Positions 17,874 to 29,554 of a stretch of 64,000 nucleotides of DNA are shown here, piece by piece. Origin of the DNA: Burkholderiales bacterium. Its GTDB lineage: Bacteria > Pseudomonadota > Gammaproteobacteria > Burkholderiales > Usitatibacteraceae. The position numbers and the translations under genes are program-made. Positions within the stretch are counted from its first letter, which is position 1. Each line of letters begins with the position of its first letter. The stretch spans positions 1-64,000 of the forward strand of contig JANYBL010000058.1 in assembly GCA_025360815.1 (NCBI GenBank), in the 5' to 3' direction. The notes under the pieces were generated by a model. That model saw only the letters and a list, made by a program, of their open reading frames with translations, did no database searches and had not been told where the DNA came from.

Positions 17874-20579
17874 CTAAGCCGCCTTGGAGATCAACTCACG
17901 CAACACATAAGGCAGAATGCCACCGTGCAAGTAATAATCGACTTCAATCGGCGTATCAATACGTAACAGCACCGCGACCTCTTTAGTGCTGCCATCACGG
18001 CGCTTGATCACCAGGGTCACATCCATCTGCGGTTTGATGCCGTTCTCTACGCCAACCAGATCAAACTCCTCATTGCCGGTAATGCCGAGCGAGTCAACCG
18101 TGTCAGTGCCTTTGAATTGGCAAGGCAATACGCCCATCCCAACCAGATTAGAGCGGTGAATACGTTCGAAGCTCTTGGCAATCACGGCCTTAACACCCAG
18201 CAATTGTGTGCCTTTGGCGGCCCAATCCCGCGACGACCCGGTGCCGTATTCTTCGCCACCAAAGATCATCGTTGGCGTACCGGCCGCAATGTAGCGCATG
18301 GCCGCATCGTAGATATAAGCTTGCTCGCCCGAAGGTTGCATGAGCGTCACGCCACCCTCGACCCGCGAGCCATCCGGCTTGGCGGGCAGCATCAAATTTT
18401 TGATCCGCACGTTAGCAAATGTACCGCGCATCATCACATCATGATTGCCGCGTCGTGCGCCGTAGCTGTTGAAATCAGCTTTCATGACTTGATGTTCGAT
18501 CAAGTATTTGCCTGCCGGCGAGGTATCTTTAATCGAGCCCGCCGGGGAAATGTGATCGGTGGTCACGGAATCGCCGAAGACGCCCAAAGCACGCGCACCC
18601 TTAATGTTGTGTGCAGTGCCGGCCAGCATGCCGAAATCGTTACTAAAAAACGGAGGCTCGGCAATGTAAGTTGAAGTCGGCCAGTCGTAAACTTGACCAG
18701 TTGTGCCTTTGATATTTTGCCAAAGCGGATTATCCGCGCCCAAGTTTGAATACAAGCGTTGGAAAGTGGCGGGGTCTTTGGCAAATTGCATAACGGCGGC
18801 AATCTCCGCACTGGTAGGCCAGATGTCTTTTAAGAAAACAGGGCCATTTGTGCCTTCACCGACCGGTTCGCTTTCCAAATCTTTCATGACCGACCCGGCA
18901 ATCGCATACGCTACAACTAGTGGAGGCGAAGCCAAGAAATTCGCGCGCAAATTGGGGTGAATCCGCGCCTCGAAATTGCGGTTTCCAGATAGCACCGCCG
19001 CGCACACCAAATCATTCGTAACAATCGCTTCGTTAAATGCCGGCGTCAAATCGCCTGCATTGCCAATACAAGTTGTACAGCCATAACCTGCCAAGAAAAA
19101 GCCTAATTTTTCGAGGTATGGGAGCAAACCCGATTTGGTCAAATAATCAGTAACGACACGTGAGCCGGGGGCGAGTGATGTTTTGATATGTGGCTTAACC
19201 TTTAGGCCTGCTTCCACAGCTTTTTTGGCCAGCAAACCGGCCGCTATCATCACGCTAGGGTTCGAGGTGTTGGTGCAGGATGTAATAGCGGCAATCAGCA
19301 CATCGCCCGAGCCCAATTCAATGTCGTCCTTCGTCTGAAAGCGTTTCGGCAAGTCAGCCGCGACTTTGCTAAAACCGTTCTCAGTCGGCGGCTTGGAAAA
19401 CAGTGACGCGAATTGCGATTTCATATTGCCAAGCTCAATGCGGTCTTGCGGACGCTTCGGTCCTGCAAGCGACGCGTTCACGGTTGAGAGATCCAATTCA
19501 AGCGTGGTGGAATAATCCAGATCGCCTTTTTTCGAGACGCCGTACATATTCTGGGCTTTGAAATAGGCTTGGAATGCAGTGACCTCATCGGCCGTCCGGC
19601 CGGTGGATTTCATGAATTCAACGGTCGCATCATCGACCGGGAAAAAGCCCATCGTCGCGCCGTATTCCGGTGCCATATTGGCTATCGTGGCGCGGTCCGG
19701 AACAGATAATGACTCGGTGCCTTCGCCAAAGAATTCGACAAATTTGCCCACTACTTTTGCTTTCCGCAACATCTCGGTCACCACCAGCACCAAGTCTGTC
19801 GCAGTGCGGCCTTCTTTCAATTTGCCGGCGAGGTTTACGCCAACGACATCGGGCGTCAAGAAATAAACCGGCTGGCCCAACATGCCTGCTTCCGCCTCAA
19901 TCCCGCCTACGCCCCAGCCGACGACACCGATACCGTTAATCATGGTCGTGTGCGAATCCGTGCCAACCAATGTGTCGGGATAATAAACGCCATCTTTGGC
20001 ATGGACGCCGCGCGCCAAATATTCCAGATTCACCTGGTGAACAATGCCGATACCCGGTGGCACCACTTTAAACGTATCAAACGCCTGCATGCCCCATTTC
20101 ATGAATTGATAGCGTTCTTCGTTGCGTTTGAATTCTAATTTCATGTTGAGGTCGAGCGAATCTTTACTACCGTAGCTATCAATTTGCACCGAGTGATCGA
20201 CCACTAAATCCACCGGCACTAACGGCTCGATAATCTTGGGGTTCTTGCCCATTTTGTGGGCGACACCACGCATCGCGGCCAAGTCAGCCAACAGCGGCAC
20301 ACCGGTAAAATCTTGCAGCACAATGCGCGCTAAAACAAACGGTATCTCATCTGTCCGCGCCGCGTTCGGTTTCCAGTTTGCGAGCTGTTTGATGTGTTCC
20401 GCTGAAACTTTTTTGCCATCACAATTACGCAACACACTCTCTAAAACGATACGAATAGAAACCGGCAGCCGGTTAACGTTGGGATAGGTTTGCGCCAATT
20501 CAGGCAATGAATAAAATGTGCCCGTTTTGCCTTCGGTGGGGCTGAACGTTTGTTTAGTGTTGTGTAAGTTATGAGCCAT
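17874..20579 (-). CDS. acnA: aconitate hydratase
   Basis: [106 protein letters not shown]. Confidence 0.97.
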
Positions 20580-20690
20580 GATGGTTTCCTAAGCGTGAAG
20601 GAGTGGAGATGGACGGTGGTGATAAGAATGCGGCATCCAAGTAGCGGCGTGTGGGTGCGTTGAGCGTACGTCAAAATAATGGCAGTAAAA

Positions 20691-21098
20691 TTACGCGAGT
20701 GGATTAATGATTTTAAGCCCTTTGAAATAATCGCGGAAAAAACCTTGATCGCGGGTTATGAGTGCGTTGCATTGGAGCAGGGCATGAGCACCAATGATGA
20801 AATCTGAAACGACACGATCATGGCGGTGACCGCCGCGCTCTAGGAACCGGCGCTGCATGATGCCAGCCCTGAGCGCCGCTTGCTCACTTGTGGAAGAAAA
20901 ATTAACTCGCAATTCAGCAAGCGCATCCAATAAATCTTCAACAGGTTGAATTTTAGTGGCGATTTCCGCCAAGACAATATCGCAAACCACTACATCATCG
21001 CGTTCCAATGCGCTTTGTAATTTAGCGCTAGATGTTTCGCCATGGACGGGGTCGTCGGTCAGGACATCAATCAGCGCGGAGGAGTCAATGGCAATCAT
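20691..21098 (-). CDS. PIN-domain toxin (VapC-like)
   Basis: MIAIDSSALIDVLTDD, DFIIGAHALLQCNALITRDQGFFRDYF. Confidence 0.85.
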   Translation of the reverse strand: MIAIDSSALIDVLTDDPVHGETSSAKLQSALERDDVVVCDIVLAEIATKIQPVEDLLDALAELRVNFSSTSEQAALRAGIMQRRFLERGGHRHDRVVSDFIIGAHALLQCNALITRDQGFFRDYFKGLKIINPLA

Positions 21099-21129
21099 GG
21101 GGTCTCAATCATCTGGCGTCCGAAACCAT

Positions 21130-21375
21130 TTACGGCTCCACAGGGTCACTGGGTGCACGGCCACGCAGTTCGCGCATTGCATCGTCGGTTGTCATCCCAT
21201 CAGGAAGCTTAAAACGGCCCCGAACGCGTTTAATAGCTTCGCCTACGTTTTTACTCAAGATCAGCTTGCCGTGGTCGATCTCGATGGTGAGCGGTGTGCC
21301 CTTTGATAAACCTAGGGCATCCCGCACCGACTTTGGTAACGTAATTTGGCCGCGTTCGCCTAGCGTAACTTCCAT
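21130..21375 (-). CDS. AbrB/MazE/SpoVT-family antitoxin
   Basis: MEVTLGERGQITLPKSVRDALGLSKGTPLTIEIDHGKLIL swapped-hairpin motif, just upstream of the PIN gene. Confidence 0.85.
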   Translation of the reverse strand: MEVTLGERGQITLPKSVRDALGLSKGTPLTIEIDHGKLILSKNVGEAIKRVRGRFKLPDGMTTDDAMRELRGRAPSDPVEP

Positions 21376-21619: not shown

Positions 21620-24226
21620 TCAATTGCTATTGCCGGGTTTTAGTTTCAAGCCTCGCAGCCGTAGGGCGTTGGTGATCACCGAGGCGGAACTTAGGCTCAT
21701 TGCCAGTGCCGCTATCATGGGTGATAGCAACCAGCCCGTAAACGGATAAAGCGCGCCAGCCGCCAACGGCACGCCAAGCGCGTTGTAGAAAAACGCGAAG
21801 GCGAGATTTTGTTTCATGTTACGAATCGTTTCAACCGACAATTCACGGGCGCGTGCGATCCCGTTCAAATCGCCTCTTACCAACGTCACTTGGGCGCTAT
21901 TCATCGCCACGTCAGTGCCGGTGCCCATCGCCACGCCAATATCGGCTTTGGCCAACGCGGGCGCGTCGTTGATGCCGTCACCCGCCATCGCGACAATCCG
22001 GCCTTCTTTTTGCAATCGCTCAACCAGCGCCAATTTGTCGGCCGGCTTTACTTCGCCATAAAACTCTACGATGCCTAATATTGCGGCAACCGCCTGCGCC
22101 GTTATAAGCCCATCACCGGTCGCCATCATGACGCGAATGCCGGCCGCTTTTAACCCTGCCAATGCTTCTGGTGTGCTGGTTTTGATCGGGTCAGAAACCG
22201 CCAAGATGCCCGCCAGTCGGCCATCTACTGCCAAATACATCACGCTGGCGCCGGTGGCTCGCAGCGCATCAGCCTTGGTCGTAAGATCGCTGATGTTTAT
22301 GTTTTCTTGCGTCATTAACGCGGTATTGCCGAGCGCATATTTCTTGCCGTTGATCGTGCCATGAACACCAATACCGGTACTGGATTCAAACTGTGCGGGT
22401 TTATCCAACACAAGTTTTTGTTCACGCGCGGCGGCAACAATGGCGTCGGCTAACGGATGTTCGCTGCCTTGATCGAGACTCGCACTTAGACGTAATACTT
22501 CTTCAGGGGTAAATCCAGCTGCCGCGATGGCCTGCTCAAAGACCGGCTTCCCTTGAGTTAGGGTGCCGGTTTTATCAACAATCAAGGTATCAATTTTGCG
22601 AAAATTTTCGATCGCTGCGGCATCGCGAAATAAAATTCCTTGCGTGGCCGCTTTGCCCGTCGCCACCATAATCGACATTGGTGTTGCCAACCCCAACGCG
22701 CACGGGCAGGCGATGATGAGCACCGCCACCGCGTTAATTAAGCCATATACCCAGCTCGGAGAAGGGCCAAAAAATCCCCAGACGAGAAAGGTCAAGATCG
22801 CCAGACTTACGACACTGACCACGAAATAACTGGAAACAGTATCCGCCATTCGTTGCATTGGTGCTTTTGAGCGCTGCGCCTGTGCCACCATCTGCACAAT
22901 TTGCGCGAGCATCGTGGCGCTGCCCACTTTGTCCGCCCGCATCACTAGGCTGCCATTGCTGTTCAGTGTTGCGCCAATCAGTTTGTCGCCCGCGCGCTTG
23001 GTTACCGGAATCGGCTCACCGGTCAGCATCGATTCATCCACCGCCGAGCTGCCCTCGGTGACCACGCCGTCCACCGGAATTTTTTCGCCTGGCCGCACCC
23101 GTAAGCTGTCGCCAATGTGCACATTGACTAACGGCACATCTTCCTCGCTGCCGCCGGCTTTGATGCGTCGCGCCGTTTTGGGCGCTAATTTAAGCAATGA
23201 TTTAATCGCTGCTGAAGTCTGTGAGCGGGCTTTTAGTTCCAACATTTGGCCAAGAAGAGTCAGAGAAATGATTACGGCTGCGGCTTCAAAATAAACGCTA
23301 ACGCGTCCGTTCATTGAAAACGAGATTGGAAAAAATTGAGGTGCAATGGTCGCGATCACGCTGTAAATAAACGCAGCACCGGTACCCATGCCGATGAGCG
23401 TAAACATGTTCGGGCTCCGATTGATGAACGACTGCACGCAGCGCACAAAGAAAGGATAGCCCGCCCACAGAACGACCGGTAACGAGAAAGCAAATTCAAT
23501 CCAGTTTTGGCTTTGCGCGACACGACCAAATGGCTTGAATTGATGGCCGAACATGGCGAGTGAAAACACAATCAGTGTGAATGGTAGCGTCCACCAGAAC
23601 CGCCGCCGAAAATCCGTTAACTCATGGTTTTCATCATCATCCAAGCTCGGCATTTCAGGTTCTAAGGCCATGCCACATTTGGGGCAACTACCGGAATGAT
23701 CTTGGCGGATTTCGGGATGCATAGGGCAGGTGAATATAGCCCCAAACGCTAGCACTGGCGCGGGGTTTTTATTTTTTTCTGGATGTAAATAATGCGCCGG
23801 ATCGGCCTTAAATTTATCCACGCAACGCGGGCTGCAAAAGTAATAAGTCGTGCCGTCGTGGCTGGCAGATTTATCGGGGTTGGTCGCTGCCTTCATGCCG
23901 CAGACGGGATCGATATTTGGTTTATCAACCGTTTTCACACTCAGTCCCCGGTCAGGCTCGTTAGCAGTCGTTCCGCAGCAAGTGCCGTTGGGTGATTTAG
24001 CGGTGGAACCCGCCAATAATTTTGCGGGCGGCTTATCGGTTGAATCAGCAGGTGAGCAGCACGACATTTTGCCGCCCGCGCCGGGTTTTTCCCCTTGCGC
24101 AGCGTCGGGCTTCGCTGCCGAGCCGCAGCCCGGACCGCCGACGCTGTTAGTTTCCGGCGGCGATGCCACTGCTTGAATCACATCTTGAACGTTACTGCTT
24201 GCGTTCGAAATCTCACGTTCAGTCAT
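21620..24226 (-). CDS. copper-translocating P1B-type ATPase with YHS and heavy-metal-binding N-terminal domains
   Basis: IDPVCGMK...[16 protein letters not shown] (YHS), [68 protein letters not shown]. Confidence 0.95.
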
Positions 24227-24270
24227 GATGAACCTCCATTGGTTTGATTGCCAGAATAAAAGAAATAGGA

Positions 24271-24299
24271 TTAACGCCGTACTAGCCCCCCCGCGTCAA
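24271..24299 (-). promoter_or_regulatory. candidate MerR-family operator/promoter for the copper ATPase gene
   Basis: Minus strand TTGACG-N19-TTAATC (long spacer typical of MerR promoters) overlapping imperfect dyad TTAACGC-N15-GCGTCAA. Confidence 0.45.
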
Positions 24300-24430: not shown

Positions 24431-24587
24431 ATGAGCGATTCACTTCTTACTATCGGGCACCTTGCCCGAGCTGCCAATGTGGATATCGAGACCGTCCGTT
24501 ATTATCAGCGAAGAGCGTTACTGCCACCGTCCGGTGTGATGCGGGGCGCATTTCGTTACTACTCCGCGCAGCTCGTTGATCGCATCC
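24431..24587 (+). pseudogene. merR-family regulator, 3'-truncated after the N-terminal HTH
   Basis: MSDSLLTIGHLARAANVDIETVRYYQRRALLPPSGVMRGAFRYYSAQLVDRI then runs into the Tn21-type IR; no dimerisation helix or metal-binding loop. Confidence 0.85.
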
Positions 24588-24625
24588 GGGGTCGTCTCAG
24601 AAAACGGAAAATAAAGCACGCTAAG
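24588..24625 (+). mobile_element. solitary 38-bp Tn21-subgroup (Tn3 family) terminal inverted repeat
   Basis: GGGGTCGTCTCAGAAAACGGAAAATAAAGCACGCTAAG, recognised from memory as a Tn21-type IR; GGGG outer end faces merR, so the element interior lies to the right. Confidence 0.88.
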
Positions 24626-24647
24626 GCGCGACATCGCGCCCAGCCAG

Positions 24648-24998
24648 TCATTTGACGGGCTGCACGTCCGTCACCATCAGTTTGCCGTTGTCGCTGATGG
24701 CCCGAAACTTCACCTTGTCGCCAGGCTGCACCTTGTCGAGCAAGCATTTGTCCTTGACCGTGAACACCATCGTCATGCCGGGCATGTCGAGGTTCTTGAT
24801 GTCGCCGTGCTTGAGGGTGATTTTCCCGGCGTCTTTGTCGATCTTCTTGACTTCGCCGTCGGTCATGTCGGCCGGGTTGTTTGCAGCCTGCGCAGCAGTT
24901 TGGGTATCGGTAGCGGCGGACTGTGCAGCAGCACTCAAAGGAAGGCCAGCAGCTGTCAAAAGGCTGATGGTCAATGTGATAACGGGAATGGTTTTCAT
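24648..24998 (-). CDS. periplasmic copper-binding CusF-like protein
   Basis: signal peptide; GEVKKIDKDAGKITLKHGDIKNLDMPGMTMVFTVKDKCLLDKVQPGDKVKF. Confidence 0.92.
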   Translation of the reverse strand: MKTIPVITLTISLLTAAGLPLSAAAQSAATDTQTAAQAANNPADMTDGEVKKIDKDAGKITLKHGDIKNLDMPGMTMVFTVKDKCLLDKVQPGDKVKFRAISDNGKLMVTDVQPVK

Positions 24999-25076: not shown

Positions 25077-25610
25077 TCAGTGCTGATGGTCAGTGTGGCC
25101 GTCCATCGGCTTGGCGTCATGGCCGCTCATCTTCTTGCCCATGACCATCACCGCGCCCTTCATTCCGGCGTCGTAGTGACCGGGCTGCAAACAGGCGAAG
25201 TCGATCTTTCCCGCCTTGCTGAACTGCCAAATTACTTCGCCGGTCTGGCCAGGCGCGACCGTCACCATGTTCGGGTCGGAATGCTCCATCTCCGGGAACT
25301 TCTTCATCACTTCATAGTGTTCTTTAAGCGCCGCAGCCGTGCCCAGCACGAATTCGTGCTTGACCTTGCCGGCGTTTTTGACCACAAAGCGGATCGTCTC
25401 GCCCTGTTTGGCCTGGATATTAGCCGGGGTGAAGCGCATGGTGTCGCTCATGTCAATGTTGACGGTGCGCGTCACCTTGGCGGCGTCGCCTGCGGTGCCG
25501 ATGGCCTGGGTGTCATTGCCGTGGCCTTCGTGTTTGTCATGGGCGCTCGCCCAGCCGCTGGCGGCCAGCATGGCGCAGAGTGTGAGGGTGCGGAGGGTGT
25601 TGGATTTCAT
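25077..25610 (-). CDS. cupredoxin/plastocyanin-like copper protein
   Basis: signal peptide, MRFTPANIQAKQGETIRFVVKNAGKVKHEFVLG, FACLQPGHYDAGMKGAVMV. Confidence 0.92.
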   Translation of the reverse strand: MKSNTLRTLTLCAMLAASGWASAHDKHEGHGNDTQAIGTAGDAAKVTRTVNIDMSDTMRFTPANIQAKQGETIRFVVKNAGKVKHEFVLGTAAALKEHYEVMKKFPEMEHSDPNMVTVAPGQTGEVIWQFSKAGKIDFACLQPGHYDAGMKGAVMVMGKKMSGHDAKPMDGHTDHQH

Positions 25611-25654: not shown

Positions 25655-27079
25655 TCAGTGATCGGAATGGCCGACCGGCTTGCGCACCTGCACCTGGACA
25701 GGTGGCGCGTTGCGTTGGGCACGCGGCATGGTCTGCCCGCCTTCCGACTGGAAGCGAGCAGGTTCAGAGACCGGCCCTGTGTATTCAAAGGCCGTCGTGC
25801 CTGGCGGCTGTTTGTACCAGCCTGGATCTTTGTAGTCGCCCGATTTTTGCTCGCGCCGAACTTTCAGCACTGAAAACATGCCACCCATCGCAACGGACTC
25901 AAATGGCCCCTCGCCGGTCATCATGGGCGCGGTGTTATCGGGCATCGGCATTTCCATTTCGGTCATATCCGACATCCCGCGCTCGCCCATTACCATGTAG
26001 TCCGGCACCAGCGAGGTGATTTGCTTGGCTACACCCCGATGATCGACCCCGATCATGGTGGGCACGTTATGGCCCATTGCGTTCATGGTGTGATGTGCTT
26101 TATGGCAATGAAATGCCCAGTCGCCTTCTTCGGTGGCGACGAATTCGAGCTGGCGCATTTGCCCAACCGCGACGTCCGTGGTCACTTCCGGCCAGCGTGC
26201 CGATTTGGGCACCGCCCCGCCGTCAGTGCCGGTGACCATAAATTCATGGCCGTGTAAATGGATGGGATGATTAGTCATCGTGAGATTGCCGATACGAATC
26301 CGCACTTTGTCATTTTGCCGTACCACCAGCGGATCAATGCCGGGAAAAATGCGGCTGTTCCACGACCATAAATTGAAATCAAGCATGGTCATGATTTTCG
26401 GGGTGTACGCGCCCGGATCAACATCGTAAGCGTTGAGCAAAAACACAAAATCACGATCCACTTCCTCAATCAATGGATGCTTATTTTTAGGATGCGTGAC
26501 CCAAAAACCCATCATGCCCATCGCCATTTGGGTCATCTCGTCCGCATGCGGGTGATACATGAATGTGCCGGGACGCCGAGCGATGAATTCGTAGACAAAG
26601 GTTTTGCCTGGTTGAATTGCGGGCTGGTTTAAGCCCGTCACACCATCCATGCCGTTGGGTACCCGCTGCCCGTGCCAGTGAACCGAGGTGTGTTCGGGCA
26701 ATTTATTGGTGACAAACACTCTGACCCGATCACCTTCCACCACTTCAATCGTGGGTCCAGGCGATTGCCCGTTATAGCCCCACAAATGCGCGGTGAAGCC
26801 TTCACACATTTCACGCACTACCGGCTCGGCCACCAGATGAAATTCTTTTACGCCGCTGTTCATTCGCCACGGCAGTGTCCAGCCATTTAGGGTGACCACC
26901 GGGTTGTAGTGGCGGCCATTCGCTGGCAGGAGCGGGGGCATGGTGTCCGATTTGGTTTGCAGCACAGGTTCAGGCAGCGCCGCCAACGCGACGCGGCTCA
27001 CCGATGTTGCCGCGACGGCACCGACAGCGGCAGCACCCGCTACACCGGCGTTCTTAAAAAAGCTTCTTCTGGAAATCAT
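25655..27079 (-). CDS. multicopper oxidase (copper-resistance type)
   Basis: Tat signal MISRRSFFKNAGVAG; VHWHGQRVPNGMDG, GTFMYHPHADEMTQMAMGMMG, NHPIHLHGHEF, WAFHCHKAHHTMNAMGH. Confidence 0.95.
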   Translation of the reverse strand: MISRRSFFKNAGVAGAAAVGAVAATSVSRVALAALPEPVLQTKSDTMPPLLPANGRHYNPVVTLNGWTLPWRMNSGVKEFHLVAEPVVREMCEGFTAHLWGYNGQSPGPTIEVVEGDRVRVFVTNKLPEHTSVHWHGQRVPNGMDGVTGLNQPAIQPGKTFVYEFIARRPGTFMYHPHADEMTQMAMGMMGFWVTHPKNKHPLIEEVDRDFVFLLNAYDVDPGAYTPKIMTMLDFNLWSWNSRIFPGIDPLVVRQNDKVRIRIGNLTMTNHPIHLHGHEFMVTGTDGGAVPKSARWPEVTTDVAVGQMRQLEFVATEEGDWAFHCHKAHHTMNAMGHNVPTMIGVDHRGVAKQITSLVPDYMVMGERGMSDMTEMEMPMPDNTAPMMTGEGPFESVAMGGMFSVLKVRREQKSGDYKDPGWYKQPPGTTAFEYTGPVSEPARFQSEGGQTMPRAQRNAPPVQVQVRKPVGHSDH

Positions 27080-27103: not shown

Positions 27104-28528
27104 TTAATGACCAGCGGGAGCGTCACTGGTTGGCATCGCACTGGAATTCATTTGGGTCACGTACGGTTTGCCGATCATCGCCATATCAAGGTCCTCCTTG
27201 GCGAGCCAAAAATCACGCAGGGCTTCGATATAACCGTTCACGCTCGTGATCTGGGCGCGTGCGTCAGCGAGCAGATCAAAGACGCCAATGAGCATGCCGT
27301 TGTAGCGCAACAGGTTTTCATCGGCGATGCGTTTACGAATCGGTACGATTTCATCGCGATAGTGTTTGGCGATATCGTAGGTCAATCGGTAGCTTTGGTA
27401 GGTTTGGCGGACTTCTGACCGGGCGTTAATCGCCACTTCAGCCGTGCGGTTAACCGACTGCATGTAAAGCGATTCCGCTTTGACTACTTTGGTGGTGCCC
27501 CAATCAAAAATTGGAATCTCCAAGCTCACCTCAAACCCTTTTTTATACGGATCCGATTTGGCACCCTCCAGTACACGCGTGGGACCGATTTCGAGCACAT
27601 TGATAAAGCGGGTGGCCTTCGACAGGCCGAGGTTCTTGGCAAGTGATTCAGTGCCCAATTTCATGGCTTGCACATCTAAACGCTGCGCCATGGCGATTTG
27701 TTCGACATTGGGCAGATCGTCCACCGCTGTTGGCAGATCCGGTAAGCGGTCCGGTAATTTGTACTGAATTTCCTCGCCCCATAGCCCAAGCAAACGCGAC
27801 AATTTCTCACGCGTGCTGCTCTGGTTCTGCGTGGCGCGTGCGTGATTCAGCGCTGCATCAGCATAGAAGCCCTGCTCTCGTGCCTGCGAGAGCTTATTGA
27901 AATTACCAACGCTAACCATTCGCCGCGCTAATTCAGCGCTGGATTCTGCGACAGTCTTGACCTTGGCCATGTAGCGCACCGATTCCTCCGCCGCCAGCGC
28001 GAGGATGTAGGCTTTTCGGGTTTCCGATGCTAGCCGTAGTACCTCCATCGTCACCATGCGCTGCGTTTGTGCAAAGCTTCGCTGGGATAGTTCTGTTTTC
28101 AACGGAATCGTGAGAATAGATAGCAAATTGAACGTTAGTGTTTGCTCGATCGTAAACTGATCGCGAATGCTCGCCTGCCGCCACGTAAAGTGTGGATTGG
28201 GCAAGCGCCCAGCAGCCACTAAATCTGCTTCAGAAATCCCTAATTCGTCAAACGAGGCTTGCAGACCGCGATTATTGATCACGGCGATTTGCACCGCGTC
28301 GTCAATTGTTAACGATTTTTGCAACAGTTCGCCCACGCGCTTGGAAACAATTTCGCGGTCGGCATCGCTGCGTGACCATTTAAGGTCGTAGCCAGTGCGG
28401 GCTTTAGTGGTTTGCGCAACGGCCGCCAACCCGCCATCTTGCGTGAATGAGGCGCAGCCGCCGAGTGCCAATAAAACAAACGCTGCAGCCAATCGTTGGT
28501 GCTTGAAACGAGAGGGGACGTCCATCAT
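27104..28528 (-). CDS. TolC-like outer membrane efflux protein
   Basis: lipoprotein-like LLALGGCAS, LTIDDAVQIAVINNRGLQASFDELGISEADLVAAGRLPNPHF; stop overlaps the upstream gene region. Confidence 0.9.
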   Translation of the reverse strand: MMDVPSRFKHQRLAAAFVLLALGGCASFTQDGGLAAVAQTTKARTGYDLKWSRSDADREIVSKRVGELLQKSLTIDDAVQIAVINNRGLQASFDELGISEADLVAAGRLPNPHFTWRQASIRDQFTIEQTLTFNLLSILTIPLKTELSQRSFAQTQRMVTMEVLRLASETRKAYILALAAEESVRYMAKVKTVAESSAELARRMVSVGNFNKLSQAREQGFYADAALNHARATQNQSSTREKLSRLLGLWGEEIQYKLPDRLPDLPTAVDDLPNVEQIAMAQRLDVQAMKLGTESLAKNLGLSKATRFINVLEIGPTRVLEGAKSDPYKKGFEVSLEIPIFDWGTTKVVKAESLYMQSVNRTAEVAINARSEVRQTYQSYRLTYDIAKHYRDEIVPIRKRIADENLLRYNGMLIGVFDLLADARAQITSVNGYIEALRDFWLAKEDLDMAMIGKPYVTQMNSSAMPTSDAPAGH

Positions 28529-28959
28529 TTTTTCGCCTCAGGCGGATGTTGTCCCGCCTGTTTTGCTTCGGTTGGTGGTGTCGCTAAAGCCGAGCTTGGC
28601 GCTCCGGGTGATGGCTGAGAAACCAGTACTGGTGCGGCGTTTGGGGCAGTCTGGGTTCGTGAGGGGCTTGCCGTAACCGATGGAGCCGCTGCCTCGCGCG
28701 CATACGCGCGCCAGCCGCCGACTTTGCCCACCTCATCATTCGCCGCTTTCCACGGTTTGCGCTTGTCTTCGCCCAGCAGGTGGTAGTCGGAAAATGGCGA
28801 CTTGTAGAGAGCGGGCGTGGAGGGCGCTTGCGCGCTGGTTGCGTCCTTCGCGCTGCCCTCATTGCGCTCTGCAGATGCCGATAGTTCGCTCGAGCCAGAT
28901 GACACTAAGGCGATAAAGGTTGCCACGTAAGTTGTTGCGTTTTTTGGTATGAATTGCAT
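28525..28959 (-). CDS. hypothetical protein of copper-resistance operons
   Basis: YKSPFSDYHLLGEDKRKPWKAANDEVGKVGGWRAYAREA; overlaps the TolC-like gene start; ATG at 28959 (MQFIPKN). Confidence 0.7.
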   Translation of the reverse strand: MQFIPKNATTYVATFIALVSSGSSELSASAERNEGSAKDATSAQAPSTPALYKSPFSDYHLLGEDKRKPWKAANDEVGKVGGWRAYAREAAAPSVTASPSRTQTAPNAAPVLVSQPSPGAPSSALATPPTEAKQAGQHPPEAKK

Positions 28960-29062
28960 ATTGATCCTCGCTTCGTAAATTGACATAACGAAAAGCGGAG
29001 GATGCCATAACCCATACAATGGTGACACGCGATGGCGTCACAACGCGCGCCGCATTGCATAA

Positions 29063-29554
29063 TTAGTCAGGCAAGAACCCCCGCCGATAAGCGAGGGCGG
29101 TGCGCGGCGGCGGGGCGAGAAGGTCCGGGATATAGGAGGGGTAGAGTGGCGGTGGCGTTAACGCAAAAACATTGGTCGGCGAAACGCTCGGCATGACTGG
29201 CATCGCCTGCATGGCTAACGCGCCAGCTAAATGGCAGAGAACACAGTGGGTACACGGCTTGCCAGCCGGCAGCTTTTTTCCGACGGCATTGCCATGGCAG
29301 GGCATCAGCAAAAGATCAATCTCGTTAGCGCTTGTTGTATCGCTGACTTTGGTCAGCCCGTTAGCGCCAAAAGTTGGCCCGGAAAATCCGTCGGATATCG
29401 TTTTAGTGAAACCACTGACATCCAGCGGAGTAACACGATCGGAAGTCCCGGCAATACCCGACATCCCCGTAATGGGCATAACGGCCGCAATCACGCCGGC
29501 AACGGGTAGCCAAAGGATCATCCATGCTAAAAGTAACTGACGCGATAACTTCAT
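29063..29554 (-). CDS. DUF2946-like Cys/His-containing secreted protein
   Basis: signal segment, KPCTHCVLCHLAGALAM, C-terminal PPPRTALAYRRGFLPD; first gene of the copper cluster. Confidence 0.6.
   Translation of the reverse strand: MKLSRQLLLAWMILWLPVAGVIAAVMPITGMSGIAGTSDRVTPLDVSGFTKTISDGFSGPTFGANGLTKVSDTTSANEIDLLLMPCHGNAVGKKLPAGKPCTHCVLCHLAGALAMQAMPVMPSVSPTNVFALTPPPLYPSYIPDLLAPPPRTALAYRRGFLPD

Follow-up and report, generated by a model that had tools for sequence, protein, structure and literature searches.

We analyzed a 64,000-nucleotide stretch of DNA from a Burkholderiales bacterium (referred to here as the window), in which the copper P-type ATPase gene copA and a copper operon lie on either side of a merR gene fragment and a transposon terminal repeat. 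The features of the locus are listed below by position in the window; "native" and "element-derived" are assignments made from the sequence comparisons that follow.

21620..24226, minus strand: copA, copper P-type ATPase, native, divergent from merR; 81% identical to that of G004, a genome of the same genus
24268..24299, minus strand: putative remnant of a MerR-type copA promoter/operator, TTGACGCGGGGGGGCTAGTACGGCGTTAATCC, corresponding to TTGACTCTGGGGTNNRGTACRGRGT of four intact merR-copA loci
24431..24587, plus strand: metal-type merR, 5' fragment of 52 codons (helix-turn-helix and wing)
24431..24655, plus strand: chimeric read-through open reading frame (ORF), 74 aa, the last 22 aa from the terminal repeat and spacer
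24583..24587, no strand: CATCC, candidate target-site duplication by sequence; one element end is left and its mate lost
24588..24625, plus strand: Tn21-subgroup (Tn3 family) terminal inverted repeat, 38 bp, GGGG outer end toward merR
24625-24640: GC-rich hairpin GGCGCGA-CA-TCGCGCC, conserved in G187 (a genome of another family; see below)
24626..24647, minus strand: spacer of the element, from the repeat to the cusF stop, conserved in G187, hairpin included
24648..24998, minus strand: cusF-like copper-binding protein gene, element-derived (Pfam CusF_Ec; tree sister G187)
25077..25610, minus strand: cupredoxin (CopI-like) gene, element-derived (tree sister G187, support 0.99)
25655..25793, minus strand: 3' end of the multicopper oxidase (MCO) gene, last 46 codons, element-derived (site counts)
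25794..27079, minus strand: body of the MCO gene, native (site counts; the MCO tree groups it with the genus, 0.998)
27104..28528, minus strand: gene for a TolC-like outer-membrane protein, native (Pfam OEP; groups with the genus, tree support 1.0)
28525..29554, minus strand: two small uncharacterized ORFs (167 and 163 aa) heading the copper operon, no Pfam match

The 38-bp sequence at 24588-24625, GGGGTCGTCTCAGAAAACGGAAAATAAAGCACGCTAAG, is a perfect repeat of the Tn21-subgroup type. A transposon on a Burkholderia anthina plasmid has, at its mer side, a terminal repeat that matches it at 38/38 positions, and at least 5000 plasmid records hold close matches to it. This full identity, together with the near-identical repeats of thousands of plasmid records, makes its assignment by sequence as a Tn21-subgroup end secure. 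Some of the plasmid matches carry extra matching bases beside the repeat, which look like chance extension; the flanks that we inspected differ. The 38-mer itself was not found in the literature searched, and a promoter and terminator scan around the junction gave results near shuffle expectation.

This end stands alone. Within the window, GGGGTCGTCTCAGAAAACGGAAAATAAAGCACGCTAAG has a single match at up to 3 mismatches, where shuffles expect 0. Two probes taken from the repeat, an 18-mer allowing 2 mismatches and a 29-mer allowing 3, each matched the 3.74-Mb draft genome once, at 24588-24625 only. No second terminal repeat in inverse orientation was present in the window or the whole assembly, and the host genome gave no match to the Tn3 DDE transposase (PF01526). 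A preliminary description of this DNA had noted the lack of a second repeat, tnpA and the merR 3' half in the window, and these are also undetected genome-wide (the search for the merR 3' half was run without a positive control). The genome-wide search for a mate that it had proposed thus leaves the solo end standing.

On its outer side the repeat ends merR after 52 codons, as had been proposed. Pfam MerR_1 covers residues 7-53 of the ORF at 24431-24655, and only positions 2-47 of its 69 profile positions. The N-terminal helix-turn-helix and wing are therefore present in this partial match. The head is 57-64% identical to intact regulators that hold the same position in other cassettes; in the alignment, homology to them stops at ...VDRIR, and the reading frame then crosses the repeat. 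Five intact homologues run ~80 residues further, through a dimerization helix and then a C-x8-CPII-like metal-binding segment, and aligning the 74-aa peptide with them bore out the earlier claim that it has neither the dimerization helix nor the metal-binding Cys segment. Since it would be a DNA-binding head with no dimerization or sensor part, the peptide is probably inactive. Among the intact homologues, those at L070 and L089 score nearest the mercury MerR model, just under its cut-off, yet they adjoin copper genes and the first sensor Cys is missing; they possibly form a distinct copper-sensing branch.

Comparison of synteny among relatives, also proposed earlier, located the intact gene: G002, of the same genus, and L089, L121 and L152 carry a complete merR of the same type, placed exactly between cusF and copA and in each case convergent with cusF and divergent from copA (cusF>, <merR, copA>). 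The two small ORFs are likewise conserved in relatives, upstream of tolC/MCO or of the cupredoxin gene. The ancestral order of the window was thus most likely tolC-MCO-cupredoxin-cusF, merR, copA, as judged from present-day gene orders. The merR position in this order rests on G002 and genomes of other groups; G004, of the same genus and with its MCO gene beside copA, has no merR between cusF and copA. The cusF-merR interval is a variable spot of the cassette, with differing extra genes in L089, L121 and L152 (encoding a DUF305-like protein, or a 180-183 aa membrane protein). A further locus of the same genus, L070 (G002:C348), has two merR genes and reads cupredoxin-cusF-merR-copA, with no MCO or tolC gene between the small ORFs and the cupredoxin gene. 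Beyond copA, at 17874-21375, acnA is followed by a VapC/AbrB-type toxin-antitoxin-like pair; several genomes of the genus, e.g. G004, conserve this group, and the adjoining copper cassette is not conserved with it.

Searching about 400 genomes of the order, we recovered one related element, in G187, with 91% DNA identity across the shared segment. This Tn21-type copper transposon, L207:136-7549 (G187:C154), carries the repeat (36/38 identical to that of the window), cusF, cupredoxin, MCO and tolC genes and, further inside, two small ORFs, a resolvase gene (tnpR) and a Tn21-type transposase gene (tnpA). Its tnpR-tnpA module is 88% identical to those of Tn21-subgroup mer transposons; tnpA has a frameshift and breaks off close to the contig edge, so that the element is seen without its far end. 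The junction is that of the window: the repeat, the same spacer with its GC-rich hairpin, then cusF-cupredoxin-MCO-tolC. The site is unrelated. In G187 the element lies at the 3' end of pgi rather than in merR, and the pgi frame now terminates within the repeat (...GSLQKTENKAR). Since one repeat-cusF junction is thus shared by two unrelated sites, and in G187 comes with tnpR and a Tn21-type tnpA, the comparison indicates that the window repeat is a genuine end of a Tn21-type transposon carrying copper genes, with its interior on the cusF side, the orientation that the preliminary description had favored. The hairpin, downstream of cusF, directly abuts the T-rich strand of the terminal repeat; it could serve as a terminator for the copper operon, which reads outward. 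G187, whose genome is 68% complete, holds the sole other copy of the element that we found. When a further sample of about 400 genomes of the order was drawn around G187, it yielded G187 only. The repeat-cusF junction was absent from the plasmid and viral collections searched, and 0/80 MCO loci had a Tn21-type repeat when up to 10 mismatches were allowed.

A sliding DNA comparison showed that the relationships of the operon shift along its length. At the end next to the repeat, the window proteins resemble those of G187: the cusF product is 91% identical to that of G187 versus 46-50% to the copies of G004, G005, G007 and the G002 merR locus, and the cupredoxin is 93% identical to that of G187 versus 46-52% to the same genus copies, which are themselves 57-75% identical to one another. 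At the other end, the TolC-like protein is 67% identical to that of G187 versus 76-79% to those of its own genus, to which the MCO is 87-88% identical. Trees agree, placing the window cusF and cupredoxin with G187 and the MCO and TolC-like protein with the genus. At the DNA level, the window is 92% identical to G187 between the repeat and ~25,793; the figure falls to 75% for the MCO body and 68% for tolC. The distinguishing sites of the MCO gene divide into 27 G187-only and 0 genus-only at 25655-25800, and into 20 G187-only versus 95 genus-only beyond 25800, a switch at ~25,793 with a Fisher p of about 1e-16. This seam lies 46 codons before the MCO stop, and the frame, register and length of the MCO are kept across it. 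These comparisons indicate that the copper operon is a hybrid, in which the element gave cusF, the cupredoxin gene and the last ~46 MCO codons, while the MCO body, tolC and copA are those of the host genus. The earlier suggestion that the element brought in or rearranged the copper operon therefore holds for cusF, the cupredoxin gene and the MCO tail, which are foreign, and not for the MCO body and tolC, which are native.

The model that best fits these data, the simplest at two events and in our view very probably correct, is insertion of the transposon into merR followed by a deletion between direct repeats of the MCO gene. The host would have started with a native tolC-MCO-cupredoxin-cusF cassette convergent with merR, itself divergent from copA. 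A Tn21-subgroup transposon with its own cusF-cupredoxin-MCO-tolC genes next to one repeat would then have entered merR after codon 52, leaving the element MCO and the native MCO in direct orientation. An in-register crossover between the two at about 25,793, as suggested by the mosaic and by what is absent, would have deleted the remainder of the element (MCO body, tolC, tnpR, tnpA and the mate repeat) along with the merR 3' half and the native cusF and cupredoxin genes. What remained would be a solo repeat, a merR of which only the DNA-binding part is left, and a hybrid operon in which the MCO frame is unbroken. One deletion would thus account for the solo repeat, the truncated merR, the missing mate and transposase, the foreign cusF and cupredoxin genes and the hybrid MCO. 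The intermediate, with insertion and direct repeat, was seen in no genome. A counterpoint to the crossover is that the element and native MCO genes are only about 75-80% identical, so that recombination would join diverged sequences over short tracts.

Several other histories could be proposed. Tn3-family elements are reported to move with only one of their ends precise and the other variable, and many solo repeats of the family have been described (PMC4133298), so the single repeat here might reflect one-ended transposition, in which a variable-ended segment running from the repeat through cusF and the cupredoxin gene to the MCO 3' end became joined to the native MCO. We consider this unlikely: a random end would not land in frame and in register within a homologous MCO, and such an event alone leaves the loss of the native cusF, cupredoxin gene and merR 3' half unexplained. 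Still less likely is that the full cassette, from repeat to tolC, was transposon-borne, with MCO and tolC later gene-converted to genus alleles and the far end deleted independently; this would also produce the mosaic at 25,793, but it needs three or more events, where one crossover covers both deletion and mosaic.

Gene order had first suggested to us a wholly native copper cassette in which the repeat is an unrelated solo scar, as the order tolC-MCO-cupredoxin-cusF, merR, copA is ancestral in several relatives. We dropped this reading on the cusF and cupredoxin identities and the G187 junction, and hold it to be highly improbable, as G187 has the same repeat-cusF junction and the foreign cusF-cupredoxin block begins exactly at the repeat. 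Finally, the genome is a draft of 129 contigs, which might suggest an assembly chimera at the repeat. The chance of this appears close to negligible, given that the repeat is single-copy in the assembly, that the cusF side is independently matched in G187 and that the second seam lies about 1.2 kb away, within a gene still in frame.

Insertion into merR followed by the MCO crossover would have consequences for copA. The copA promoters of G002, L089, L121 and L152 have TTGACTCTGGGGTNNRGTACRGRGT in common, and the window holds a diverged form, TTGACGCGGGGGGGCTAGTACGGCGT, with a longer G-run, a weakened inverted repeat and one extra base. This divergence, in a single sequence only, would fit relaxed constraint. 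As in loci with CueR/MerR-type metal regulators and their divergent target promoter, the window fragment has the helix-turn-helix and wing head and a position divergent from copA, and the copA promoter is related to the TTGAC-type elements of intact loci; unlike such regulators, the fragment has no dimerization helix and no C-x8-CPII metal-binding segment. The cognate metal-sensing activator of copA thus appears to be lost. The host genome encodes one other MerR_1 protein, whose gene adjoins an integration-host-factor-like gene; this protein lacks those metal-binding features, and the genome yielded no further metal-type MerR. Because of this, copA probably has a constant basal expression or is run by another system.

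The element can be set beside several known systems. The window repeat and the mer end of the B. anthina element have the same sequence, and the G187 transposition module likewise resembles those of Tn21-subgroup mer transposons, but the cargo here is a cusF-cupredoxin-MCO-tolC copper operon instead of mer; unlike complete transposons of the subgroup, the window has one terminus and no transposition genes. The locus shares with solo Tn3-family repeats and TIMEs a terminal repeat without a transposase (PMC4133298). TIMEs, however, consist of two repeats around a short core (PMC4133298), whereas here a single repeat, in window and genome alike, is linked through a recombination seam to an operon that looks functional. 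Transposon-borne copper resistance is known in Xanthomonas, e.g. TnpLM199 (PMC8453159); compared at the cargo level, these elements are alike in carrying mobile copper resistance, but their cargo is copLAB/copABCD (PMC8453159), unlike that described here. In limited searches of literature and plasmids, we found no Tn21-subgroup element with cusF-cupredoxin-MCO-tolC cargo.

Each component of this history is a known kind of event, and the history as a whole is unusually readable. More broadly, and quite tentatively, an undescribed copper-dedicated Tn21-subgroup transposon (cusF-CopI-MCO-TolC) might circulate in the order and reshape resident operons through insertion and homologous-cargo recombination, with loss of the regulator selected as constitutive copper defense. 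Such an element would be recognizable by its repeat-spacer-cusF junction, GCACGCTAAGGCGCGNCANCGCGCCC. The host, with a copA bereft of its metal sensor, offers a directly testable situation. The locus presents, at base resolution, a case in which what a metal-resistance transposon leaves behind can be hybrid genes instead of the element: where the cargo is homologous to a resident operon, the element becomes deletable, part of its cargo may replace resident alleles, and the regulator may be lost.
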